Below are positions 6,230 to 18,600 of a DNA stretch of 64,000 bases, piece after piece. Each line of letters begins with the position of its first letter. Position 1 is the first letter of the stretch. Source of the DNA: Pararhodobacter aggregans (lineage in GTDB: Bacteria; Pseudomonadota; Alphaproteobacteria; Rhodobacterales; Rhodobacteraceae); the NCBI RefSeq assembly GCF_003075525.1, contig NZ_QDDR01000001.1, positions 186,001 to 250,000 of the forward strand, read 5' to 3'. Below the pieces are notes generated by a model, which saw only the letters and a program-made list of their open reading frames with translations, ran no database searches and was not told the origin of the DNA. The translations under genes and the position numbers were made by a program.

Positions 6230-6343
6230 GGTGGGTTGAAAACCCACCCTACAGGCGCGACCCCGTAGGGTGGGTTTTCAACCCACCGTCGGCGACCTCA
6301 GCCCCGCGCGTGCCGCGATGGTGCGTGCAAGCACGCACCCTAC
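6230..6343. repeat. REP-like palindrome cluster 1 (three copies)
   Basis: Three short hairpins with a GTAGGGTG foot. Copy 1a at 6230-6252 is inverted (ends CCACCCTAC). Copy 1b at 6265-6287 is direct (starts GTAGGGTGGG). They share the core GTGGGTTTTCAACCCAC and face each other. Copy 1c at 6320-6343 is inverted with a different core, GTGCGTGCAAGCACGCAC. The repeated string GTGCCGC precedes copies 1a and 1c. The cluster fills the gap between the convergent DUF815 and DUF1499 genes and could also act in mRNA 3' ends. It belongs to the same family as the clusters at 17.5, 40.6 and 58.6 kb. Confidence 0.8.
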
Positions 6344-12322: not shown

Positions 12323-13002
12323 TTGACCCAGAGACCGCGCTATCCCGCCTGCACGCCCAGACCGATCCCACCCGCGCCGCCGAGATGCGCGCCTATCACA
12401 AGGTGGACCGGATCTATCTGGGCCTGTCGAACCCGCAGATCGACGCGCTGGTCGCCGAATGGCGCGCGGTTTGCAGCGTCGAGGAGCGCGTGGCACTGGC
12501 CGACGCGCTCTGGGCCAGCGGCATCCATGAGGCGATGATCGCCGCGGCCAAGCTGCTGACCCAGGCGCGGCTCCGGCCGGATGACGCGGCCTGGGCCCTG
12601 ATCGCCGGCTGGGCCGAGGGGTTCGACGGCTGGGCGGTGGCCGATACCGCCGCCGCCGCCGGAAGCCGCCGCCTCGCCGCGGATCCGTCGCGGCTCGATC
12701 AGGTCGAGGGCTGGACGCAGCACCCCAACATGTTCACCCGCCGCGCGGCGCTGGTCATGACCCTGCCCTGGGCGCGGCTCAACAACCCGAAAGCGGCCGA
12801 TCTGGCGGTGCGCGAGCGCGTGCTGGGCTGGGCCGCGGGCTACGCCGACGACCGCGACTGGTTTATCCAGAAGGCGGTCGCCTGGTGGCTGCGGGACCTG
12901 TCGAAACACGACGCCAACCGGACCCGGGCCTGGATCGCCGAGCACGGCGACCGGCTGAAACCTTTTGCCCGGAAAGAGGCCCAGCGGTTGCTCGCCGACT
13001 GA
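12319..13002 (+). CDS. DNA alkylation repair protein (AlkD-like, HEAT repeats)
   Basis: A 227-aa, all-alpha protein of the AlkD/DNA-7-methylguanine glycosylase superfamily. It begins with RLHAQTDPTRAAEMRAYHKVDRIYLGL, a typical N-terminus. It continues with helical repeats, including HPNMFTRRAALVMTLPWARL and a DRDWFIQKAVAWWLRDLSKHD segment where the family keeps its DNA-contacting tryptophans and aspartate. It probably excises alkylated bases or acts as a non-catalytic relative. Its ATG overlaps the DUF3833 stop. The dispersed hairpin element begins about 12 bp after its stop. Confidence 0.82.
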   Translation: MIDPETALSRLHAQTDPTRAAEMRAYHKVDRIYLGLSNPQIDALVAEWRAVCSVEERVALADALWASGIHEAMIAAAKLLTQARLRPDDAAWALIAGWAEGFDGWAVADTAAAAGSRRLAADPSRLDQVEGWTQHPNMFTRRAALVMTLPWARLNNPKAADLAVRERVLGWAAGYADDRDWFIQKAVAWWLRDLSKHDANRTRAWIAEHGDRLKPFARKEAQRLLAD

Positions 13003-13013
13003 GGGGACAGGGC

Positions 13014-13278
13014 ATGCGGGGGGCCAGCCCCCCGCGCCCCCCGCCAAAGGGGACCCTCGGGCCCCCTTTGGAAACCCCCGAGGATATTTAGAGAACAAAG
13101 ATGCAAGTTAAGAGCGCGTTAAGCCGCCTTCTTTGCGCTGCAAATATCCTCGGGGGGTGAATTGGCCGTCAGGCCAAGAGGGGGGCAGACGGCCCCCCTC
13201 CCTTCGGCGCGGCGGCACGCCGCGCCGCTGGTCGCCCGAGGCGCCCGCGGCAGCGGGCAACGAGGGCGAAACACCTCC
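13014..13278. repeat. Dispersed multi-hairpin element, copy A
   Basis: A non-coding element of about 265 bp between the convergent AlkD-like and doxX genes. In order it holds the GCGGGGGGCCAGCCCCCCGC hairpin, a CCAAAGGGG/CCCCTTTGG hairpin, and a long inverted pair CCCCCGAGGATATTT / AAATATCCTCGGGGG about 50 bp apart. A TTGGCCGTCAGGCCAA hairpin follows, then GGGGGGCAGACGGCCCCCC, a CGGCGCGGC/GCCGCGCCG hairpin, and the end GAGGGCGAAACACCTCC, which touches the doxX stop codon. It is nearly identical to copy E (62.4 kb). Confidence 0.85.
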
Positions 13279-13716
13279 CTAGCGGTCGAGCCTGAGCAGC
13301 CGGTCGACCGAGAGCCGACCCGGCCCGTAGGCCAGCACCGCCAGGAGGCTCGCAGCCCAGGTGCCATGCAGGACCCAGGCCTCGGGATAGACGAAGATCT
13401 GGATCACCGCCGTCATCGTCAGCAGCCCCGCCGCCGACAATCGCGTGCAGAGGCCGGCGATGATCAGCACCGAGAAGGCGTGTTCGCCCAGCGTGGCCAG
13501 TACCGCCGCCCAATCCGGGGGGATCAGCGGCAGCGCGTATTCGTGCTCGAACAGGTAGAAGGTCGAGGGTTTGATCGAAAACCCCTCGACCTTGGTCCTT
13601 GCCGACAGCCAGAAGGTCACGCCGACGAATATCCGTGCGGCGAGTTGCACGAGGTCGGCGGGGATCAGCCGGCCAGCGCGGGCGTTCAGCGACAGGATCC
13701 GGTTGCGCAGGGTCAT
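13279..13716 (-). CDS. doxX: DoxX-family membrane protein of the bufferin operon
   Basis: A protein of about 145 aa with four hydrophobic helices ([48 protein letters not shown] and [14 protein letters not shown] among them). It ends in SVDRLLRL, typical of DoxX proteins linked to DUF692/DUF2063 operons. Such DoxX proteins accompany bufferin genes; their exact role is not known and may be redox or copper related. Its ATG overlaps the bufC stop by 4 bp, making it the last gene of the minus-strand operon that starts with bufA at 16188. Confidence 0.85.
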
Positions 13717-14444
13717 GGGGTTTCTCCGATCTCGGCGATGAGGTGGTGGCGGATCAGCAGGGCCAGCAGCGGGGTCGGGTCGGTGGTGGCCTTGGCCAGT
13801 GGCTGACCCTGGAGCCACGCGCAGAGCAGCGCGTGGCTGTCGCGGCTCAGCGGTTCGACCGTAACGGCAAGGCCCGGCGTTCTGGCGATCAGCGCCTGTT
13901 CGGGGCCGCCGGGCAGGGGCGCGGGCGTCGCGCCGGGCTGGTTCAGGCGCCACAGGCTGACCGCCGGGCTTTCAGCCGCGAAGGCCTGCACCGAGGGCAC
14001 GAGCCGCAGGATCAGGCGTTCGGGATCCGCCTGTCCAAGCCTCGCGGGGTCCGCCGGGGCCGCGTCCGGCGCGTGATAGGCGAGGCCGCGCAGCCATTCC
14101 AGCCGGGCGACATCGGGCAGGTAGGGCAGCGATCGCGCGGGCGGGAAGCGCGCCAGGAAGCCCGGAAAAGCCGCGCCCCAGTCGAGGAGGACGGGCGAAT
14201 CGGGCGGGTGCTGCGCGGCAAAGACCCGGGCCATGGCGGCGAAGAATTCGGCGCCGACCAGCCGCTCGATCACCGGAAACCGGGCGGCCAGGGCGCGGGA
14301 CAGCCCGTGCTGGACATTGTTGCGATAGACGGCGAAGCGGCGGTCGCGGGTGGGGGCAGGGCCCAGGCCCTCGGGCGTCGCGGGCGTCCAGAGCGCGGCG
14401 GCGAGCCGGGCTTCGGTCACGGCGTGGTCAGCGGGAGGGGGCAT
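13713..14444 (-). CDS. bufC: DUF2063 / HvfC-BufC family partner protein
   Basis: A 243-aa protein with the DUF2063 N-terminal region: [37 protein letters not shown], followed by [20 protein letters not shown]. This family partners DUF692 multinuclear iron oxidases and helps bind the precursor peptide, as in methanobactin MbnC and bufferin BufC. The C-terminal domain is variable. It lies between a hypothetical ORF and doxX and overlaps doxX by 4 bp. The assignment by family and context is strong; the interaction with BufB is inferred. Confidence 0.87.
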
Positions 14445-14931
14445 CGGGGACCTCGGCGGTGTTCAGGGCGAGTGTGAGGCGGTGGCGTTGCGGCGGCGCG
14501 TGATGGTCTTGGAGGGCGGTTGCGGCGCGGGTCAGGGGCCGACGCGCAGGGGCCCCGAGCAGGTCGGTTTTGCCTGCCTTCGGGCGGCGAGCCGGGGGGG
14601 CGTCGGCCGGGCGCAGGGGGGCTCGCGGCGTGGCAGCGGGCGCCATGTTCCGGGCGAGCCGGTCGCGGTGCGGGCGGGCGTTGGAGGGCAGGGGCCGACC
14701 GGCTGGGGGCGGGGCGGCATTCGCGGTGCCTGCCTGCGTCATCTTTTGGCGCGAGGAGAGGCCGTTGCTGGTCAGCTCGCGCCTTAAGTCTTGCAGATGA
14801 TGAGGGGCGGCCGGACCCGACGCCCGCCTCGGTCCGGGCTGTGCGGTGAGGCGCCGGGCCTGGGGCGCGGGCCTCGCTGGGGGCGCCGCAGGTCCGGGCG
14901 GACGCCGGGCCAGGTCACGCGGCGTGGACAT
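14428..14931 (-). CDS. Possible Pro/Ala/Arg-rich protein inside the buf operon
   Basis: A 167-codon open frame that exactly fills the gap of about 470 bp between bufB and bufC, overlapping each by roughly 17 bp. The predicted product is low complexity, rich in proline, alanine and arginine, with no recognisable domain, signal peptide or cysteine. Third-position GC is high but includes rare codons such as TTA and AGG. It could be a disordered protein translated by coupling, or a chance frame in GC-rich spacer DNA. No other frame in this gap is more convincing. Confidence 0.3.
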
Positions 14932-15757
14932 GGCGGGTCCTGGCCAGCAGCGTCGCGGCGCGCCGGGTTTCGGACTGGAGCTGCGCGAAGGCGGGCACGT
15001 CGTTGTCCCATTCGATCAGCGTGGGGCGCGGACCGGTGCGGGCGATGACCTCGGCATAGAGCGTCCAGACCGGATCGGCTACGGGGCGCGAATGGCTGTC
15101 GATCAGCAGGGGGCCGTCCTCCAGCACCTCGACCTCGTGCCCGGCGAGGTGGATCTCGCCGACCAGCTCCAGCGGGAAATCGGCCAGATAGGCGCGGGGA
15201 TCGGTCCGGTGGTTCACCGCCGAGACGAAGACGTTGTTCACATCGAGCAGCAGGCCGCAGCCGGTCCTGCGGGCGATTTCGCGCAGGAAATCCGTCTCGG
15301 CCCAGGTGCTGTCGGCGAAGGTGACATAGGTGGCGGGGTTTTCCAGCAGCATCCGGCGGCCGAGCACCTCCTGCGTCTGGTCGATATGGGCGCAGATCGT
15401 GGTCAGCGACTGATCCGTATAGGGCAGCGGCAGCAGGTCGTTCAGCCAGGCCGCCCCGTGCGAGGACCAGGCGAGATGTTCGGAAAAGCTCTCGGGTTGA
15501 TAGCGGTCCAGCAGGCGCTTCAGCCGGGCGAGATGCTCGCGGTCCAGGGGACCCGCGCCGCCGATCGACAGGCCGACGCCGTGGATCGACAGCGCATGCG
15601 CCGCGCGCAGCCGTTCCAGCATGGCATGCGGGGCACCGCCCGCGCCCATGTAATTCTCGGCATGCACCTCGTAGAAGGCGACAGGCGCGCCGAGCGCCTC
15701 GCGGAAATGCTCGGGCTTGAAGCCGAGGCCGGGGGCGTCGGGAAGGGCGGCGGACAT
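14915..15757 (-). CDS. bufB: DUF692 multinuclear non-heme iron oxidase (BufB/MbnB type)
   Basis: A 280-aa TIM-barrel enzyme of the DUF692 (MNIO) family, which modifies cysteines of ribosomal peptides, for example to oxazolone/thioamide or thiooxazole groups. Likely metal ligands are visible in family order: ENYMG near residue 34, the IHGVGLSIG segment near 58, SEHLAW near 93, LENPATYV near 138, [12 protein letters not shown] near 170, EIHLAGHE and DSHSRPV near 200-220, and EWDND near 250. The adjacent upstream gene is bufA, the presumed substrate, and bufC lies downstream. Activity on BufA is inferred from characterised loci. Confidence 0.93.
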
Positions 15758-15810
15758 GGCGGGCTCCTGTCAGGGAAGGGGCCGCCCCGGGGCGCGGGGC
15801 GGCCCGGGGA

Positions 15811-16188
15811 TCACATCATGACCGGCATGTAGGTATCGGCGACCGCCATGTCGAAACCCGCGGGCAGGTCGCGGTTGATGCCGGGGCCGTAGCCGCCCGC
15901 TTCCAGTTGCTCGGCGGTGGCACCCATGCGGGCATGGCCCATGCCATCGGCGGGCAGTTCCATCGTGGCGCAGGTGCCGGCCGGGACCAGGGTCCAGGCA
16001 TTGCCCTGGTAGTCGATGGTCGAGGTGCCGGCGCAGCTGGTGCCCGGGCCCGCGGCGCAATCGTTCTGTCCGGCCATCGAGACGCCGTAGCAGCGCTCTT
16101 GCGCCATGTCGTCGGCCTGGGCGGCCCCGGCGGAAAGCGCCAGCGCGGCGGCGATCGAAGCGGCGAGGATCGGGGTTTTGGTATTCAT
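15811..16188 (-). CDS. bufA: Bufferin-type precursor (DUF2282), secreted
   Basis: A 125-aa DUF2282 protein. A signal peptide covers about residues 1-25 ([18 protein letters not shown], cleavage after AQA). The mature part starts [19 protein letters not shown] and continues [21 protein letters not shown] then [11 protein letters not shown], giving the four conserved cysteines at about residues 33, 44, 52 and 73. In Caulobacter, members of this family are bufferins, copper-binding peptides modified by DUF692/DUF2063 enzymes. A longer C-terminal tail (about 45 aa, Met/Gly-rich, ending MPVMM) is present. It is first in the minus-strand operon and has its own ECF-type promoter. Confidence 0.9.
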
Positions 16189-16239
16189 GGTTGGGATCTC
16201 CCGGTTGAAGGCCCCGCATCCGTTGCGGGCCTGCCCTTC

Positions 16240-16267
16240 AGGACGGTGCCGGACAGGGCGTCGTTAC
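16240..16267 (-). promoter_or_regulatory. ECF-type promoter for the bufABC-doxX operon
   Basis: Read on the minus strand: GTAACG (16262-16267), 16-bp spacer, CGTCCT (16240-16245), about 52 bp before the bufA start codon. The layout matches the promoter of the divergent sigma-factor gene (GTAACA-N16-CGTATC). It also resembles the GTAAC/CG type recognised by SigF-like ECF factors in Caulobacter. The pairing of two such motifs with identical spacing in one 183-bp intergenic region is the main support. Confidence 0.65.
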
Positions 16268-16325
16268 GCCTGCTCACGCAGCCGTGACATCGGTGCGTTT
16301 TTCGTCGATCTTGGCGGCGGGCGGT

Positions 16326-16353
16326 GTAACAACTCGGCCCATTGCACCGTATC
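16326..16353 (+). promoter_or_regulatory. ECF-type promoter for the sigma factor-nrsF operon
   Basis: GTAACA (16326-16331), 16-bp spacer, CGTATC (16348-16353) on the plus strand. A transcript would start near 16358-16362, leaving a very short leader before the ATG at 16372. The last three spacer bases and first three -10 bases (CAC CGT) are the same as in the divergent bufA promoter. It implies positive autoregulation of the sigma factor. Confidence 0.62.
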
Positions 16354-16371
16354 GGAGGTCGCGTGCCCCCC

Positions 16372-16911
16372 ATGGACGAACCGAGCTGGGAGTCGCTGAT
16401 GCGCGCCGCGAACCGCGGCGACCAGCGGTCCTATGCCCGGCTTCTGGGGGCGGTCACGCCGGTCGTGCGCGGAATCGTCCGGGCGCGGGGCGGGACGCTG
16501 GGTCCCGAGGCTTGCGAGGATGTGGTGCAGGAGGTGTTGCTGACCATCCACCTGAAACGGCAGAGCTGGCGCGAGGATGCGCCGCTCAGGCCGTGGCTCT
16601 ATGCCGTGACGCGGCACAAGGTGGTGGATGCGTTCCGCGCCCGGGGCCATCGGGTGGAGATCCCTGTCGAGGACGTGGCCGAGATCCTGCCGGCGCCCCC
16701 CGGCGAGGACCCGTTCGAGGCCCGCGACATGGCCCGGGTGATCGGGCGGCTGGAGCCCCGCGCGGCCGAGATCGTGCGCGCCATCGGCATCGACGGCGAG
16801 AGCGCGGCCGAGGCCGGCGCCCGGCTGGGCATGAGCGAGGGCGCCGTCAGGGTGGCATTGCACCGGGCCTTCAAGTCGCTGGCCCGGCTGCGGGAAAGGA
16901 TGATCGAATGA
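16372..16911 (+). CDS. ECF RNA polymerase sigma factor (SigF-like)
   Basis: A 179-aa ECF sigma factor. Region 2 spans about residues 12-80 (DQRSYARLLGAVTPVVRGIVRAR, then EACEDVVQEVLLTIHLKR and LRPWLYAVTRHKVVDAFR). Region 4 spans about residues 120-175 (RVIGRLEPRAAEIVRAIGIDGESAAEAGARLGMSEGAVRVALHRAFKSLARLR, described by its ends). It should direct transcription of itself and the divergent buf operon. Its stop overlaps the nrsF start (ATGA), so sigma factor and anti-sigma factor are translationally coupled. An alternative GTG start lies at 16363. Confidence 0.92.
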   Translation: MDEPSWESLMRAANRGDQRSYARLLGAVTPVVRGIVRARGGTLGPEACEDVVQEVLLTIHLKRQSWREDAPLRPWLYAVTRHKVVDAFRARGHRVEIPVEDVAEILPAPPGEDPFEARDMARVIGRLEPRAAEIVRAIGIDGESAAEAGARLGMSEGAVRVALHRAFKSLARLRERMIE

Positions 16912-17540
16912 AGACCGACGCGCTGATTGCGGCCCTTGCCGCCGATACCACGCCCCGGGTCGCCCCGGGCGCGCGGCTGGCGCGCAGCCTGCCGGTGGCG
17001 TTTGTGGTCTCGGTGCTGCTGCTGCTGGTCTTCTGGCAGGTGCGGCCGGATCTGGCCGAGGTCCTGACCTCGGTCCCGGTTTACAAGACGCTGGTGCCCG
17101 CGGCGATGGCGCTGGCGGCGCTGTGGCTGGCCCGCGGCATGGCGCGGCCCGAGGCGCGGGTCGGGGCCGAGGCCTCGGTCGTGGGCGTGCTGGGGCTGGG
17201 ACTGCTGGGGGCGCTGGCCTACGGGCTCGCGACCAACAGCCCGGCCGAGATCGCCGAGCTGCTGGATACCCGCGATTTCGAGAATTGCCTGATCTCGGTG
17301 CCGGTCCTCGCGGCGCTGCCGCTGGCGGGCGCGCTCTGGGCGATGAAGGCGGGGGCGCCGCGCCACCCGGTGCTGGCCGGGGCGGTCGCGGGCCTGTTGG
17401 CGGGGGGGATCGGGGCGGCGGTCTATTCGCTGCATTGTCCGCATGACCCGCTGATGTATTTCCTGTCGGCCTATGGGGGCGCGATGCTGGTCGTCGTGGC
17501 GTTGGGCGCAGTGATCGGCGGGCGGGTGCTGCGCTGGTAG
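16908..17540 (+). CDS. nrsF: NrsF-type membrane anti-sigma factor (DUF1109)
   Basis: A 210-aa inner-membrane protein with six hydrophobic helices and no large soluble domain, matching DUF1109/NrsF. Two cysteines stand in the family's conserved positions, Cys127 (FENCLIS) and Cys177 (LHCPHDP). In Caulobacter NrsF, paired cysteines are needed for release of SigF upon heavy-metal stress. It overlaps the sigma-factor gene by 4 bp. Its TAG stop codon (17538-17540) is supplied by the GTAG foot of a REP palindrome that starts at 17537, so the repeat sits exactly at the end of the gene. Confidence 0.9.
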   Translation: MKTDALIAALAADTTPRVAPGARLARSLPVAFVVSVLLLLVFWQVRPDLAEVLTSVPVYKTLVPAAMALAALWLARGMARPEARVGAEASVVGVLGLGLLGALAYGLATNSPAEIAELLDTRDFENCLISVPVLAALPLAGALWAMKAGAPRHPVLAGAVAGLLAGGIGAAVYSLHCPHDPLMYFLSAYGGAMLVVVALGAVIGGRVLRW

Positions 17541-17654
17541 GATGGGCAATATTGCCCATCCTACGGGGCGGGCAGGGGCAGGGATGGTGCGTGCGAGCAC
17601 GCACCCTACAGGAGGTTTTCCCCTTTGCCGGTAGGGTGCGTGCTCGCACGCACC
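17537..17654. repeat. REP-like palindrome cluster 2 (three copies)
   Basis: Copy 2a (17537-17564) is a perfect 28-bp palindrome with foot GTAGGATG and core GGGCAATATTGCCC; its GTAG includes the nrsF stop. Copy 2b (17586-17609) is inverted with core GTGCGTGCGAGCACGCAC. Copy 2c (17631-17654) is direct with core GTGCGTGCTCGCACGCAC, so 2b and 2c face each other 21 bp apart. They sit between the convergent nrsF and pirin genes. Confidence 0.8.
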
Positions 17655-17667
17655 GACACTCGGGCCC

Positions 17668-18600
17668 TCAATCCGGAAGCGGGATATATTCCTCCGTATC
17701 CCCCGGCGGCAGTTCGAACAGGCCCTTGCCCCAGTCACCCCGGCGCCAGGCCTCTTTCGCCTCTTCGATCTTCTCCTTCGAGGAGGAGACGAAATTCCAC
17801 CAGATATACCGCGGTCCGTTCAGCGTATCGCCGCCCAGCAGCATCAGCCGCGCGCCCGCCGGTCCCGCCTGAAGCGTGATCGCGTCGCCGGGACGGAAGA
17901 CCGCCATCTGCCCCGTCTCCAGCACCTGCCCGGCCACCGTGACCGAACCCGCCAGCACATGCAGCCCCCGGTCCTCGTGATCCATCGGCAGCGGGATCCG
18001 CGCGCCCGCTTCCAGCACCGCATCGGCATAGAACACGCCGCCAAAGGTCGAGACCGGCGCCTTCTCGCCCCAGGCGGTGCCGAGGATCAGCCGCACCCGT
18101 TTGCCTTCGGCCTCCAGCATCGGCAGGTCGCCCTTGCCGAAATGCTCGAAGGCGGGGGCCATCTCCTCGCGGTCCTCGGGCAGCGCCAGCCAGGTCTGCA
18201 CGCCGAACAGGTCGTGCGGCCCCTGCCGGACCAGCGGGTCGGTGCGTTCGGAATGGGTGATGCCGCGGCCCGCGATCATCCAGTTCACTTCGCCGGGGAT
18301 GATCTTCTGATCGGTGCCGAGTGAATCCTTGTGGATGAAATGGCCGTTGAGCAGATAGGTCACGGTGCCCAGTCCGATATGCGGATGCGGCCGCACGTCG
18401 ATCCCGGCGCCGGTGACGAATTCCGCCGGACCCATCTGGTCGAAGAAGACGAAGGGCCCGACCATGCGGCGCTGGGCGGCGGGCAGGGCGCGGCGCACCT
18501 CGAAGCCGCCCAGATCGCGGGTACGGGGCACGATCAGGGTTTCGATCGCGTCGGGATCTGTGGTCAGGGGGCCGGGGTCGAAGGCCGGGTTCCAGCTCAT
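17668..18600 (-). CDS. Pirin family protein
   Basis: A 310-aa bicupin protein of the pirin family. The N-terminal cupin has the metal ligands in RPHPHIGLGTVTYLLNG (about residues 70-86) and the later ITHSERT segment (about 113-119). PRYIWWNFVSSSKEKI near the C-terminus is a family hallmark. Bacterial pirins can be quercetin dioxygenases or regulators of pyruvate metabolism; which applies here is unknown. It is transcribed alone, with the rhomboid gene 86 bp upstream on the same strand. Confidence 0.92.
   Translation of the reverse strand: MSWNPAFDPGPLTTDPDAIETLIVPRTRDLGGFEVRRALPAAQRRMVGPFVFFDQMGPAEFVTGAGIDVRPHPHIGLGTVTYLLNGHFIHKDSLGTDQKIIPGEVNWMIAGRGITHSERTDPLVRQGPHDLFGVQTWLALPEDREEMAPAFEHFGKGDLPMLEAEGKRVRLILGTAWGEKAPVSTFGGVFYADAVLEAGARIPLPMDHEDRGLHVLAGSVTVAGQVLETGQMAVFRPGDAITLQAGPAGARLMLLGGDTLNGPRYIWWNFVSSSKEKIEEAKEAWRRGDWGKGLFELPPGDTEEYIPLPD

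Follow-up and report, generated by a model that had tools for sequence, protein, structure and literature searches.

Bufferins are a recently named and widespread family of copper-handling peptides. The subject here is a bufferin locus in a 64-kb stretch of Pararhodobacter aggregans DNA (the window; host genome 5.08 Mb, 32 contigs). Four minus-strand genes, bufA, bufB, bufC and doxX, encode a DUF2282 precursor, an MNIO (DUF692) maturase, its DUF2063 partner protein and a DoxX membrane protein, and two outward-facing genes, sigF and nrsF, encode an extracytoplasmic function (ECF) sigma factor and its anti-sigma factor. The locus is very probably a self-contained Buf1 bufferin module controlled by sigma-F and NrsF. 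It is an ordinary member of a known system, in which a putative sigma-F-type site at both divergent genes is the new observation and the long BufA tail, shared by a minority of relatives, is a modestly interesting variant.

In Caulobacter crescentus, sigF (CC3253) and nrsF (CC3252) adjoin CC3254-CC3257, which encode DUF2282, DUF692, DUF2063 and DoxX proteins. Sigma-F drives both transcription units there from a promoter of the form GTAACC-N16-CGAA, and NrsF has six transmembrane segments, with Cys131 and Cys181 being important, according to that study (PMC3511200). The window carries the same genes in the same numbered order as CC3252-CC3257, with a GTAAC -35 element and equal spacing, whereas the -10 element is CGT at both of its sites instead of CGAA (PMC3511200). 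The products of sigF, nrsF, bufA, bufB, bufC and doxX are 179, 214, 93, 280, 254 and 150 residues long in Caulobacter and 179, 210, 125, 280, 243 and 146 in the window, BufA being the exception to this agreement (PMC3511200). Caulobacter has a second buf operon, whereas the host genome of the window shows a single gene each for DUF2282, MNIO and NrsF.

Buf1 clusters with sigma factor and NrsF genes have been described (Antoine et al. 2025, PMC12452194). In these, the central cysteines of the precursor are modified, the outer ones form a disulphide, and thiooxazoles are the reported copper-chelating groups of characterised bufferins; 5-thiooxazole is supported as the shared modification by another study (PMC12668002). 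The window resembles such clusters in its four-cysteine DUF2282 protein with a putative signal peptide, MNIO, DUF2063 partner, DoxX and sigma/NrsF genes, and differs by the long C-terminal tail of BufA; no methionine-rich or extended bufferin tail was found in literature searches, and neither "Met-rich" nor "methionine" occurs in the main text of PMC12452194. The gigPABT and rpoQ-rsqA genes of Cupriavidus metallidurans are arranged similarly, with a four-cysteine peptide (GigP, mature part 72 aa) and DUF692-like, NGO1945-like and DoxX-like genes that face away from an ECF sigma/anti-sigma pair (PMC10304878).

Putative promoter sites and proposed control of the module

All six genes match Pfam families above the gathering cut-offs, the sigma factor through PF08281 and PF04542. 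BufB is assigned to NCBIfam MNIO_BufB (NF050167; 378.9 bits, cut-off 310) and the sigma factor to NF009165 (205.8 bits, cut-off 198). The gene calls of a first-pass annotation, made from the letters alone, hold for the four minus-strand genes and for the outward-facing pair, and hydropathy gives the six hydrophobic segments it had proposed for NrsF. Cys33, Cys44, Cys52 and Cys73 of BufA are invariant in 46 aligned sequences (the window and 45 of 80 named loci), and its hydrophobic N-terminus, ending in AQA, resembles a signal peptide in its hydropathy. Cys127 and Cys177 of NrsF are conserved in 35 of 35 aligned NrsF sequences. In BufB, 21 His, Asp, Glu or Asn positions are invariant in 173 of 173 sequences, and the protein matches the solved chains 3bww and 8hci (DUF692) and MbnB. 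BufC follows the MNIO gene, as a DUF2063 partner (PME type 1), and its 243 aa is close to the 250-260 aa reported for this type (PMC12452194); no solved structural relative of BufC was found at E 0.01.

Exact GTAAC-N17-CGT occurs only twice in the window, before bufA and before sigF, where 0.22 sites are expected; two or more sites were found in 2 of 100 shuffles of the window. The bufA site (GTAACG-N16-CGTC) and the sigF site (GTAACA-N16-CGTA) differ at 3 and 2 of 10 positions from GTAACC-N16-CGAA, with equal spacing. The comparison set comprised 183 sequences (80 named loci, 102 fetched regions and the window; 175 distinct), with L113 and short loci excluded. It is biased toward relatives of the window BufA, high-scoring DUF2282 proteins and the genus, and its frequencies are not population estimates. 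sigF was scored as present above 60 bits to the window's own sigma factor, and exact GTAAC-N17-CG[AT] was sought within 200 nt upstream of bufA. The motif was present at 22 of the 26 loci whose sigF is divergent, 12 of the 14 whose sigF lies downstream and the single locus with upstream sigF, compared with 2 of 131 loci where no sigF was detected (three of 134 such loci were dropped for short upstream sequence, and one of them, L180, has the motif) and 0.2-0.5% in shuffled upstream sequence. A site upstream of sigF was found at 21 of the 26 divergent loci and at none of the 15 others. Regulation by sigma-F is likely, and the tight co-occurrence of the motif with a nearby sigF offers a way to tell from sequence which bufferin operons are probably under sigma-F control. 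The families, the Caulobacter gene order, the NrsF cysteines and the paired promoter sites all agree with the module that the first-pass annotation had proposed.

The window's own group consists of the window, L032-L035, L173-L175, L177, L179 and L180, with L032 placed by its position in the BufB tree only. All 11 bufA sites and all 9 sigF sites found in this group have CGT as the -10 triplet, and the remaining loci with a site have CGA at 26 of 27 bufA and 10 of 12 sigF sites; these counts share ancestry and are not independent. A joint shift of -10 specificity in the Pararhodobacter group is possible. Eight group-specific columns in 41 sigma sequences, some shortened by automatic start choice, revealed no clear specificity determinant. 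A genome-wide sigma-F regulon was unsupported, with 14 exact GTAAC-N17-CGT sites in 5.08 Mb compared with 89 for the reversed control. Two of the 14 are those of sigF and bufA; of the other 12, site L246 lies 41 nt before an open reading frame (ORF) that resembles an acetate kinase gene, and an ORF likewise follows sites L250 and L252.

In the proposed mechanism, NrsF in the inner membrane would hold the ECF sigma factor. By homology, thiol-reactive metal stress would be sensed via Cys127 and Cys177 and release the sigma factor, which could then fire the two divergent GTAAC-N17-CGT promoters of sigF-nrsF and bufABC-doxX. BufB and BufC would oxidise the central Cys44 and Cys52 of BufA to thiooxazoles, as homologues do, and the peptide would be exported by Sec, probably with a Cys33-Cys73 disulphide. 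Once in the periplasm, it may buffer copper, possibly along with other soft metals; DoxX has a presumed accessory role. For the window, copper binding and thiooxazole chemistry are extrapolated from characterised homologues. Bufferin precursors bear a Sec signal in place of a leader, and how the maturase complex recognises them is, to our knowledge, not settled.

The BufA tail and the bufB-bufC spacer

The first-pass annotation had described a BufA tail of about 45 aa, methionine-rich at its end and possibly different from characterised members. The methionine end and the difference hold, while the length does not: 52 residues follow the fourth cysteine, compared with 16-31 in 160 of 175 distinct loci. 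The remaining 15 loci have long tails of 43-70 residues, with no lengths between 31 and 43. Of the 175 tails, 158 contain a block resembling RDLP (loose pattern), and 143 have it at or close to their end. The long tails carry additional residues ahead of this block and 13-34 residues beyond it, where methionine makes up 51 of 277 residues (18%) compared with 7% in short tails. Methionine is spread unevenly among them, from 1 of 13 residues in L040 and L163 to 8 of 34 in L035.

The tail label was fixed before any tree was built. One of the 15 long-tail loci (L179), whose BufB frame is broken by a run of N, was dropped from the trees. In the 173-row BufB tree, 7 changes of tail class are needed, at least 2 of them forced by the starred branches; in a careful 54-row tree, whose 40 short-tail rows were chosen after the first tree, at least 3 are forced. 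A single clade for all 14 long-tail rows is rejected (approximately unbiased test, p-AU 1.9e-5), whereas one for the 8 long-tail rows of the window's group is not (p-AU 0.38); two genus members, L174 and L175, have short tails. The pattern could reflect repeated gain, repeated loss or exchange of bufA ends. A search with Cys73 and the tail matched 9 of 295 genomes, the host genome and genome G222 among them, once each and always on bufA frames. This count is a minimum, and absence elsewhere does not follow from it, because the known long tails of L040, L135 and L144 were missed, and ELP and other parts of the query are common to ordinary tails. An AlphaFold model of BufA from 46 sequences (mean pLDDT 62, pTM 0.46) was too weak for fold searches; blocks of residues 61-120 averaged 63-82 pLDDT and the Cys44/Cys52 stretch 44.

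The 470-bp gap between bufB and bufC, a feature absent from the first-pass annotation, is the largest of the 175 loci, in which the median is -20 with homology-based starts, so that the genes usually overlap or touch. The next largest gaps are 266 (L185) and 203 bp (L228), and one of 174 bp (L179) is an artefact of a run of N. In L034 the bufC start overlaps the bufB stop; the window keeps a start codon there (14931), and its homology-based bufC start is at 14444. The spacer has a GC content of 0.78 and matches 8 of 18 genus genomes, one of them its own, the other listed matches being short (about 28-76 bases). A mobile element was unsupported in this search, which was confined to the genus, and the spacer is single-copy in its own genome. 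No Rfam match was found in 13000-18000.

Points against and alternative readings

Several observations weigh against a sigma-F-controlled, copper-handling module. The NCBIfam equivalogs related to BufA, BufC, DoxX and NrsF score under their cut-offs (NrsF 90.6, cut-off 300). The exact bufA site is missing in 4 of 26 divergent loci and the exact sigF site in 5 of 26, and the 470-bp spacer might weaken the coupling of bufB and bufC. No sigF was detected nearby in 134 of 175 loci, including Ruegeria and other roseobacters (L037, L039-L043, L050, L052 and others), although these loci carry bufA and bufB; sigma-F control therefore does not extend to the family as a whole. For the homologous gig operon of C. 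metallidurans, evidence of sigma control is lacking, and the rpoQ-rsqA region relies on the housekeeping sigma factor (PMC10304878). The Caulobacter background invoked by the first-pass annotation stands for sigma-F/NrsF control and for metal stress, the inducers being chromium and cadmium, but the word "copper" is absent from the main text of that paper (PMC3511200). It is conceivable, if unlikely, that expression and modification proceed as proposed while the module mainly binds, or mainly answers to, something other than copper: chromate, cadmium, gold or oxidants. The Caulobacter inducers favour this, as does the induction of the gig genes by gold as well as copper (PMC10304878), whereas the copper chelation reported for characterised bufferins (PMC12452194) argues for the copper-handling module. 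A 167-aa frame (14428-14931) spans the spacer, and it is highly improbable that this frame encodes an extra operon protein akin to the unknown ones reported between MNIO and partner genes. Inserted genes of this kind (adjamnio-VI) are reported (PMC12452194), and the frame overlaps the bufB end and the bufC start. However, it has no Pfam match, is absent from the nearest relative L173 (whose 66-bp gap shows no similarity to the spacer except in the flanks and in short matches at chance level) and, among the 17 other genus genomes searched, is matched in 7, each time by short pieces. Its GC content by codon position is 0.80/0.70/0.81, whereas bufA, bufB, bufC and doxX have 0.47-0.58 at the second position and 0.87-0.89 at the third; by this measure the spacer looks non-coding.

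For the tail, neutral C-terminal drift with no role is a serious contender, with a little under an even chance. Pooled pN/pS (nonsynonymous to synonymous polymorphism) in the Pararhodobacter group is 0.37 in the tail and 0.14 in the core, with purifying selection weaker on the tail; its length varies from 52 to 70 within that group, and Buf1 precursors of 30 to 835 residues are already in print (PMC12452194). On the other hand, the tail ratio is still well under 1, the two length classes are separate, the RDLP-like motif is present in most tails (158 of 175), and comparable long tails are found on two BufB branches that lie far apart. A functional alternative to drift, which we regard as a long shot, is that in this family of Alphaproteobacteria the segment after the fourth cysteine works as a follower of a ribosomally synthesised and post-translationally modified peptide (RiPP), with a conserved ELP...G...LE...RDLP block read by a part of BufC resembling a RiPP recognition element, and that long tails add, past RDLP, a methionine- and acid-rich end that serves as a second, thioether site for copper(I). 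If so, long-tail bufferins would form a recurrent functional subclass on those two branches. The conserved block with its long variants is the one feature worth experiment in an otherwise ordinary cluster.

Locus inventory and neighbouring sequence

Table 1. Features of the bufferin locus (window coordinates)
Feature	Position	Strand	Evidence
bufA, DUF2282 (Buf1) bufferin precursor, 125 aa	15811..16188	-	ORF; PF10048 1.7e-24; invariant Cys33/44/52/73
BufA C-terminal tail, 52 codons past Cys73, end DTYMPVMM	15814..15969	-	tail lengths in 175 distinct loci; pN/pS
bufB, MNIO (DUF692) bufferin maturase, 280 aa	14915..15757	-	PF05114 1.4e-104; NF050167 above cut-off
bufB-bufC spacer, 470 bp, no detectable gene	14445..14914	-	largest gap of 175; no Pfam, no Rfam match
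bufC, DUF2063 MNIO partner protein, 243 aa	13713..14444	-	PF09836 1.4e-24; HvfC-like below cut-off
doxX, DoxX membrane protein, 146 aa	13279..13719	-	PF07681 2.2e-17
sigF, ECF sigma factor, 179 aa from ATG (GTG at 16363 possible)	16372..16911	+	Sigma70_r2, r4_2; NF009165
nrsF, six-helix anti-sigma factor, Cys127 and Cys177, 210 aa	16908..17540	+	PF06532 1.2e-42; hydropathy; Cys conservation
putative sigma-F-type promoter site of bufA, GTAAC-N17-CGT	16243..16267	-	starts 79 nt before ATG
putative sigma-F-type promoter site of sigF, GTAAC-N17-CGT	16326..16350	+	starts 46 nt before ATG

The flanking genes are ordinary: a glmS-like gene, a DUF3833 gene and a DNA-alkylation-repair gene at one end, and genes for pirin, a rhomboid protein and proline dehydrogenase at the other. 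DUF2282 is present in 211 of the 295 genomes sampled from the host's family, so the bufferin system is common there; in some relatives (L073, L085, L090, L096 and genome G007) two bufA genes lie near each other. The top named BufA matches are from Pararhodobacter sp. CCB-MM2 and P. zhoushanensis, and contigs titled Novosphingobium sp. MW5 and Rhodobacter sp. NTK016B are also within the top four. The locus in the Novosphingobium sp. MW5 record (L032) is almost that of Pararhodobacter, meaning that the record is mislabelled or contaminated, or that a transfer has occurred.

A palindromic repeat, TAGGGTGCGTGCTCGCACGCACC, forms an inverted pair just after nrsF (17586-17609 and 17631-17654) and recurs at 6320-6343. 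No match to Y1_Tnp (PF01797) was found in the genome. The repeat has 87 genome copies with at most one mismatch, compared with 0 for the reversed control, and the copies often lie in close inverted pairs, like REP/BIME elements.

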